A stretch of 64,000 bases of DNA from Mediannikoviicoccus vaginalis (GTDB lineage: Bacteria > Bacillota > Clostridia > Tissierellales > Peptoniphilaceae), in assembly GCF_928097925.1 (NCBI RefSeq), contig NZ_CAKMRI010000001.1:1178001-1242000 (forward strand), in the 5' to 3' direction. The position numbers and the translations under genes are program-made. The notes under the pieces were generated by a model that saw only the letters and a list, made by a program, of their open reading frames with translations, was not told the origin of the DNA and did not search any database. Shown in pieces: positions 40,897 through 51,614 of the stretch; position 1 is the first letter of the stretch; every line of letters begins with the position of its first letter.

Positions 40897-41003
40897 TTGT
40901 ATCAACTCCTATTTTGTCCATTCACCATTATATAACATGCCAGTCAATATAACAAAGGTTTTTAAATTAAAAGAACTGAGTTATAATCTAATTGGGTGAT
41001 AAA

Positions 41004-41546
41004 ATGAAATACACAATATTAAAGGAAATAAAAGAATTTGAAAGTTCATTAAATTTAGAAGAATCTTTTGTTCCTTTTTTAATAGATAATAAAATAACCG
41101 TTTCAACGGGAGAGTCATTAACCGCAGGATTAATAACAGCTTCCATAGCAAATATTGCTGGAGCAAGTAGTGTATTGGAAATGGGAGCTATAACTTATAC
41201 AGAAGAAGTTAAAATGAAACTATTAAATGTTTCACGTGAAACATTAGAGAAACATACTGCTGTAAGTTTTGAAGCTGCCGTAGATATGTTACGAGGACTA
41301 ACTGCAATCTCTAAGTCTACTTTAAATATTGTTGCAACAGGATATGCTGGACCTGGTGAAAATAGTGGATTGGTATATCTTGGAATAGGATATAAAGACT
41401 CAGAAAATATTTATCGACTAAGGATTAAAGGGTCGAGAAATGAAGTAAGAAGAAAAGTTGTTAATCTTTCTTTTTATTTAAGTGAAAAAATAATAAAGAA
41501 TTATGAAGGAAGTAAATTAAATGTAGGCAAAGTGTTTCTTGTCTAA
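41004..41546 (+). CDS. pncC: CinA C-terminal-type nicotinamide-nucleotide amidase
   Basis: A 180-residue stand-alone CinA C-terminal domain (PncC, deamidating NMN to NaMN). The motif STGESLTAGLI lies near residue 33, and the TGYAGPGEN loop near residue 114. Start ATG 41004 has GGGTGAT just upstream; a TTG at 40992 is rejected. A parS-like site (41228-41243) lies within the gene and encodes part of the NVSRETLEK stretch. Its 3' neighbour is the parS/DnaA-box region, so it is the last gene before the origin-linked DNA. Confidence 0.84.
   Translation: MKYTILKEIKEFESSLNLEESFVPFLIDNKITVSTGESLTAGLITASIANIAGASSVLEMGAITYTEEVKMKLLNVSRETLEKHTAVSFEAAVDMLRGLTAISKSTLNIVATGYAGPGENSGLVYLGIGYKDSENIYRLRIKGSRNEVRRKVVNLSFYLSEKIIKNYEGSKLNVGKVFLV
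41228..41243. promoter_or_regulatory. parS site inside pncC
   Basis: TGTTTCACGTGAAACA, a perfect 16-bp palindrome identical to the ParB-binding consensus TGTTNCACGTGAAACA. It lies within the pncC coding sequence. Confidence 0.9.
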
Positions 41547-41554
41547 TCTATTTA

Positions 41555-41648
41555 TGTTTCACGTGAAACATTTGGTGGAGAAAATTAATTATTGTTTCAT
41601 GTGAAACATTTAAATAATTTTTATATACTTTTTGTTTCATGTGAAACA
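41555..41648. promoter_or_regulatory. Three clustered parS sites
   Basis: 41555-41570 is perfect (TGTTTCACGTGAAACA). 41593-41608 and 41633-41648 are TGTTTCATGTGAAACA, each with one change in the centre. They are spaced 38 and 40 bp start to start, in a non-coding gap. ParB/Spo0J would load here for chromosome segregation. Confidence 0.88.
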
Positions 41649-41728: not shown

Positions 41729-41981
41729 TTATCCACAAATTTGATGTATGTAAAAGGTAATTATCCACATAAAAATAAATGTGAATCTTAGTCAAAATAA
41801 ATCAAATTTTTTATCGTTATTTTTACGATTATCACAAATGTGTATTTTTAGCTCTTTGTAGCTCCTTTTATTTAATTGAAATTATAATCAGTTTTTATAT
41901 GTTTGAATCACACTTATCAACAAACTTATCCACATAGTTATCCACATGGTTATGCCTTGATTATCCACATACTTATCCACA
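41729..41981 (+). promoter_or_regulatory. Phased DnaA-box array distant from dnaA
   Basis: Six perfect TTATCCACA boxes at 41729, 41761, 41926, 41938, 41961 and 41973 and one TTATCAACA at 41914, all in the same orientation. Within 41914-41981 the starts are 12, 12, 23 and 12 bp apart. No CTA-rich DnaA-trio follows. The gap 41547-42049 (about 500 bp) contains this array and the three parS sites and no gene. Possible roles: part of a split origin, or DnaA titration. The remainder is AT-rich. Confidence 0.85.
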
Positions 41982-42049
41982 ATTTAATCTTAATAATTTT
42001 GTAATATCTTAAAACATCAATATATGATATCCTTTAATGGGTGATACAT

Positions 42050-49664: not shown

Positions 49665-49980
49665 TGTGGATAAATCAAATATTCATTGAAAAATCAATAC
49701 CTTAACATAGTTTTTTATTTGAAGTAAAACCTTCTATTTGATATAATAATAGCAGTAAAAAATAATTTTAATTCACAATTTTAAAAAAGCTTTTGTGGAT
49801 AACCCCACATTGAAAAGGGAATTTGTACAATTAAAATGGCTAATTCTCTCTTTTTTTAAGTAATTTTGGCTTTTTTCTATTTTTTTTTGTGGATAACTTC
49901 ATGTTTTTGTGGACAAGTATACGTAACATGAAAATAACAATGAAAAGTTATCATAATATTGTGGATTAATATGTGTATAA
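49665..49980 (-). promoter_or_regulatory. DnaA boxes upstream of dnaA
   Basis: TGTGGATAA (complement of TTATCCACA) at 49665, 49794 and 49888, with near matches at 49908 (TGTGGACAA), 49960 (TGTGGATTA) and 49972 (TGTGTATAA). They flank and follow the dnaA promoter, suggesting autoregulation and origin function. The 450-bp gap 49540-49992 holds these and both promoters, no gene. Confidence 0.88.
49719..49747 (+). promoter_or_regulatory. Promoter of dnaA
   Basis: TTGAAG (49719-49724), 17-bp spacer, TATAAT (49742-49747). The leader of about 235 nt carries several DnaA boxes. Confidence 0.75.
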
Positions 49981-51405: not shown

Positions 51406-51590
51406 TGTGTATAAAATGTTGATAAGTCCAAAAAATTATTTTTATTATTTTTTCTGTGGATAATGTTCATAACTTCCAAATTATGAAGATTTTATTCACA
51501 GGGATATAAATATCAAAAAACAATTAAATATCAGTAAAATCACACTTATCCACATAATGCACAGTACTACTACGACTACTACTAAATTCT
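51406..51590. promoter_or_regulatory. oriC unwinding region between dnaA and dnaN
   Basis: DnaA boxes at 51406 (TGTGTATAA), 51417 (TGTTGATAA), 51455 (TGTGGATAA), 51492 (TTATTCACA) and 51546 (TTATCCACA). The last is directly followed by TAATGCACA (51555-51563) and then CTA CTA CGA CTA CTA CTA (51567-51584), a DnaA-trio run as in the B. subtilis basal unwinding system. AT-rich DNA follows. Strand opening is expected here. Confidence 0.85.
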
Positions 51591-51614
51591 TATTATTGTT
51601 ATTAGGAGAAAAAA

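Follow-up and report, generated by a model that had tools for sequence, protein, structure and literature searches.

In Bacillus subtilis, six clusters of DnaA boxes lie outside oriC, and initiation is early when all six are deleted jointly (PMC5295017; PMC13220808); restoring a single cluster to the strain that lacks all six partly relieves this early initiation (PMC5295017). The E. coli locus datA carries an IHF site and essential boxes and stimulates hydrolysis of DnaA-ATP (PMC10950094). In Caulobacter, ATP-DnaA is required for segregation of the centromere region, as stated in a review (PMC6399470).

Here, we describe a phased array of DnaA boxes beside parS in Lagierella (Peptoniphilaceae, Tissierellales), located in a 64,000-nucleotide stretch of genomic DNA (the window; C1:1178001-1242000). 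The array is real, conserved within the genus, ordinary in kind, and unusual in its place and regularity.

Structure and setting of the array

Positions 41729-41981 of the window contain six exact TTATCCACA boxes and one box with a single mismatch, all on the plus strand (Table 1). The last five occupy 68 bp (41914-41981) at steps of 12, 12, 23 and 12 bp, and the box list and spacings of the original prediction were thus exact. A degenerate unit, TTATGCCTT, at 41950 divides the 23-bp step into 12 and 11 bp, and a 12-bp repeat of 6.0 copies is called by TRF in the core. This decayed unit suggests that the core was originally regular, with steps of 12/12/12/11/12 bp.

The array had also been placed next to parS and about 8 kb from dnaA, which agrees with the map: parS sites are found at 41228-41648, and 8,012 bp separate the end of the array from the dnaA start (49993). 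Across the 2.0-Mb genome, matches to TGTTTCAYGTGAAACA are confined to these four sites near the array. The exact parS at 41228-41243 lies inside the CinA-like coding sequence, and a counterpart occurs in the congeners at a matching distance from dnaA. The parA-parB pair (L148:4518-6210) is 146 kb from dnaA, distant from the sole parS cluster.

Table 1. Positions of the array, its neighbours and the two oriC parts in the window
Feature	Position	Strand	Basis
parS, exact, within CinA-like ORF	41228..41243	.	consensus match
parS, exact	41555..41570	.	consensus match
parS, one mismatch	41593..41608	+	consensus match
parS, one mismatch	41633..41648	+	consensus match
CinA-like protein gene, holds one parS	40992..41546	+	CinA-like ORF
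DnaA box TTATCCACA, distal group	41729..41737	+	exact match
DnaA box TTATCCACA, distal group	41761..41769	+	exact match
DnaA box TTATCAACA, one mismatch, first unit of phased array	41914..41922	+	sequence match
DnaA box TTATCCACA, phased array	41926..41934	+	exact match
DnaA box TTATCCACA, phased array	41938..41946	+	exact match
Decayed array unit TTATGCCTT, 4 mismatches, 12-bp register	41950..41958	+	TRF period 12, 6.0 copies
DnaA box TTATCCACA, phased array	41961..41969	+	exact match
DnaA box TTATCCACA, phased array	41973..41981	+	exact match
Promoter-like TTGTAA-N18-TATGAT	41999..42028	+	consensus match only
GH43-like gene, N-terminal hydrophobic segment	42050..43147	+	Pfam match over residues 211-344 only
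oriC part 1, upstream of dnaA: exact boxes 49665, 49794, 49888 and weak 49972	49665..49980	-	context, outside array
oriC part 2, dnaA-dnaN: boxes and trios CTACTA/CTACTACTA	51406..51600	.	context, outside array

The number of boxes was compared with chance by applying 2,000 dinucleotide shuffles to the 503-bp intergenic region that hosts the array (22% G+C): exact boxes averaged 0.01 per shuffle, with a maximum of 1, against the 6 observed. The 2.0-Mb genome holds 45 exact TTATCCACA boxes (12 for a reversed control pattern), and 6 of the 45 fall within the 253 bp of the array; nowhere else in the genome are exact DnaA boxes so densely clustered, and both oriC parts combined hold 5. As in non-oriC clusters of the B. 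subtilis type, near-consensus boxes are therefore intergenic and well in excess of chance, with oriC 8 kb away. A BLAST comparison of the array region with plasmids returned no match, and a comparison with Rfam returned no RNA family.

Conservation in Lagierella and beyond

Evidence for conservation comes from only three Lagierella genomes, namely that of the window, L. massiliensis (G083) and G084, one of which is 65% complete. When named relatives were sought with RsmG, L. massiliensis was the single close one obtained. All three share a common order: a CinA-like gene with parS, further parS, one or more distal boxes, the phased same-strand array, the promoter-like sequence, the GH43-like gene and rsmG. 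At the same place and on the same strand, L. massiliensis has four boxes, of which three form the array at 12-bp steps, and G084 has eight, of which five follow exact 12-bp steps. The last parS and the start of the first box are 81 bp apart in the window and 92 and 117 bp apart in the congeners. The alignment of the window with G084 is poor in the intergenic sequence that separates the features.

Departures from consensus were counted at 9 of 126 core positions of the array, compared to 9 of 30 positions in the 3-bp spacers (Fisher p = 0.0017), a comparison of few and non-independent units that is supporting rather than decisive. Because the box cores vary less than the spacers, the array does not appear to be merely a drifting minisatellite; an origin of this kind, free of selection, was judged unlikely on these small numbers.

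Beyond the genus, the comparison covered 60 oriC-side regions of the family, a number that includes the two congeners; rsmG or dnaA is lacking from some of them. In these regions, no comparable array was found beside parS in other genera with oriC-side parS, nor was one found beside parS in the sister genus g30, where the rlmH-walJ-cinA block is placed elsewhere with no exact boxes nearby. In g30, the 1.5 kb or so around the homologues of the GH43-like gene is free of DnaA boxes. Since the array is missing from the parS regions of other genera and boxes are missing from these homologues, the array belongs to this particular locus of Lagierella, and not to parS or the GH43-like gene in general. 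A lack of conservation in relatives had been named in advance as a refuting result; the array is kept in all three Lagierella genomes but was not found in the regions read beyond the genus. In some other genera, groups of boxes are located 8-12 kb upstream from dnaA (e.g., L056, L059 and L066), which we do not claim as a homologous cluster, as both parS and the arrangement are missing.

DnaA-box clusters elsewhere in Tissierellales

A 12-bp box pair was searched in 249 genomes of the order. Besides the window, this search led to G130, G133 and G192, in which tsaD (gcp) and an ABC-F gene flank a box cluster, and to G216, in which a BioY gene separates such a cluster from tsaD (loci L168, L170, L176 and L178). 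Same-strand 12-bp pairs also occur within the tsaD-side clusters of other Tissierellales. Similar box patterns were seen in G193 and G217, and the tsaD-side clusters (L168, L170, L176-L179) come from several Tissierellales families, with the tsaD/ABC-F setting in several genomes. Their neighbourhood is shared with a region of B. subtilis, between gcp and ydiF, to which DnaA binds strongly (PMC4447404). At 30 Peptoniphilaceae tsaD loci, those of Lagierella included, the 1.5-kb flank that was read contained no box cluster. One may speculate that the family lost the tsaD cluster and that Lagierella then gained its oriC-side one.

Several smaller clusters were also encountered. In the genome of the window, three tandem DnaA boxes at steps of 12 and 9 bp (L210:5027-5056; G000 C1:1670026-1670055) lie upstream of a gene that resembles, by eye, a ribosome hibernation factor, and in another genus boxes are found upstream of a Pfam-confirmed S30AE gene (L150:5148-5180). 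Four genomes of genus g34 (L137, L138, L139 and L142) have a similar same-strand three-box cluster, which in L137 lies between the genes for ATP synthase subunit D and a DUF1292 protein, far from dnaA. At L143:5203-5332, four same-strand exact boxes lie between a RecU-like gene and a sequence that weakly matches a replication-associated protein; the locus may belong to a mobile element.

Possible functions of the array

The original prediction, which is partly supported, offered three readings of the array (a second origin part, a DnaA-titrating site or a reactivating site), among which the titrating site is the best-supported on sequence grounds. On balance, we favor the view, with modest confidence, that the array belongs with the oriC-proximal DnaA-box clusters known from B. 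subtilis and would act mainly as a DnaA reservoir. A DnaA with both an ATPase and a DNA-binding domain is encoded in the genome, and would bind the strong boxes, six or seven in number and all on one strand, whose 12-bp steps would suit head-to-tail binding; head-to-tail oligomers on same-direction boxes have been proposed for oriC and DARS2 (PMC8682772). At usual fork speeds, an array 8 kb from oriC would be copied seconds after initiation, so that strong competing sites would double at once; free DnaA would consequently drop, and untimely re-initiation would be damped. We infer each of these steps (binding, oligomer formation, titration and the effect on timing) from the arrangement of the boxes. 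A secondary effect on the adjoining ParB/parS complex or on the GH43-like promoter is possible. If it binds DnaA, the array would have more consensus boxes than the origin and would double right after initiation, so that the extent to which titration of the initiator governs the timing of replication in Bacillota could be examined in a natural setting.

The neighbours of the array, parS on one side and the promoter-like sequence on the other, are constant in all three genomes, which suggests that more than titration has perhaps been selected. With regard to the first neighbour, for which the original prediction had suggested a link of initiation and segregation, DnaA bound at the array might influence the ParB-parS complex at a distance of some 80-120 bp, either licensing segregation or blocking ParB clamps that slide toward oriC; this is a serious alternative, although we regard it as rather unlikely. 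As in the Caulobacter parS region, boxes lie beside parS, at the three distances given above, and the only consensus parS sites of the window's genome are those adjoining the array. In Caulobacter, DnaA binds around parS, and a low level of ATP-DnaA moves parS even when replication does not occur, according to the same review (PMC6399470); furthermore, bound proteins halt the sliding of ParB clamps in vitro (PMC8299390). However, in the regions read, g30 and the other genera with oriC-side parS have no comparable adjoining array, the control of DnaA by ParA in B. subtilis is independent of parS position (PMC7614844), and the proximity may merely reflect that both elements favor the vicinity of oriC. 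Somewhat more doubtful still is a composite replication-segregation element, in which the phased array would be fixed with the sole parS cluster to one side of it and the origin to the other, and bound DnaA would act on ParB sliding or license segregation, the initiator level thereby setting centromere behaviour. The constant 81-117 bp between the parS cluster and the array makes a direct link between DnaA and the centromere testable outside Caulobacter.

About equally possible is a role for the second neighbour, whereby the array would control the GH43-like gene from upstream, with expression sensing the DnaA level or replication stress. The array ends 17, 20 and 23 bp upstream of the promoter-like sequence in the three genomes, and both congeners have a similar TTGTAA...TATGNT counterpart. 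In B. subtilis, several clusters are likewise found at promoters, and genes such as sda, ywlC and the ywcI operon seem to be under DnaA control (PMC4447404). This array-promoter spacing is nevertheless variable, promoter-like matches in the region are no more numerous than in shuffles, nothing evident connects the GH43-like protein with replication, and its g30 homologues, as described above, have no boxes nearby.

Unlike the titrating site, a second origin or third oriC part, at which DnaA would open the DNA or from which looping would join the array to oriC, is very improbable. The many boxes of predicted high affinity and the low G+C content of the region would suit such a role; however, the minimum of cumulative GC skew, computed over 340 kb, is at 49808, just upstream of dnaA, and no skew switch occurs at the array over the same distance. 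The sole DnaA-trios (CTACTA and CTACTACTA, 51567-51584) start 12 bp past the box at 51546, within the 10-13 bp after a DnaA box at which trios peak in the unwinding system (PMC8287927), and no CTA/TAG runs follow the array boxes, as had been correctly noted from the start. A bipartite oriC, complete with trios and two box regions, is already present at dnaA. Because the skew minimum and the only trios sit at dnaA, the replication origin is there and the array is not an origin, and the reading as a second origin part was abandoned.

A DARS- or datA-like site that would alter the nucleotide state of DnaA is scarcely credible: the array is an intergenic, non-oriC cluster of strong boxes, but DARS requires a three-box core in which boxes I and II are opposed (PMC8682772) and all array boxes share the plus strand, which leaves the predicted reactivating site unsupported, while datA requires an IHF site (PMC10950094), and both DARS and datA are described as absent from B. 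subtilis (PMC13220808).

Comparison with known systems

The array can be compared to four described systems. Like rctA/parS2 of V. cholerae, it is an initiator-binding locus (by prediction) associated with a centromere near an origin; rctA/parS2 is titrating, with the centromere embedded in it (PMC6399470), but its initiator is RctB rather than DnaA and it belongs to a secondary chromosome. Like datA, DARS1 and DARS2 of E. coli, it is a DnaA-box locus outside oriC, although the opposed box pair of DARS is missing. The parS region of Caulobacter likewise has initiator boxes beside parS near the origin, whereas the Lagierella locus belongs to a member of the Bacillota with a bipartite oriC of the B. 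subtilis type and consists of a phased array of strong boxes so far seen in one genus. Finally, the oriC-proximal clusters of B. subtilis (for example upstream of yydA, ywlC, ywcI and trmE, and at gcp/ydiF) resemble the array in being intergenic groups of strong boxes outside oriC, some of them near promoters. One of these clusters precedes yydA (rlmH); rlmH is near the Lagierella array as well, but walJ and the CinA-like gene intervene, and the two clusters need not be orthologous. Compared to the B. subtilis clusters, the Lagierella array is distinguished by adjoining the only parS cluster of its genome and by boxes that lie on one strand at 12-bp steps.
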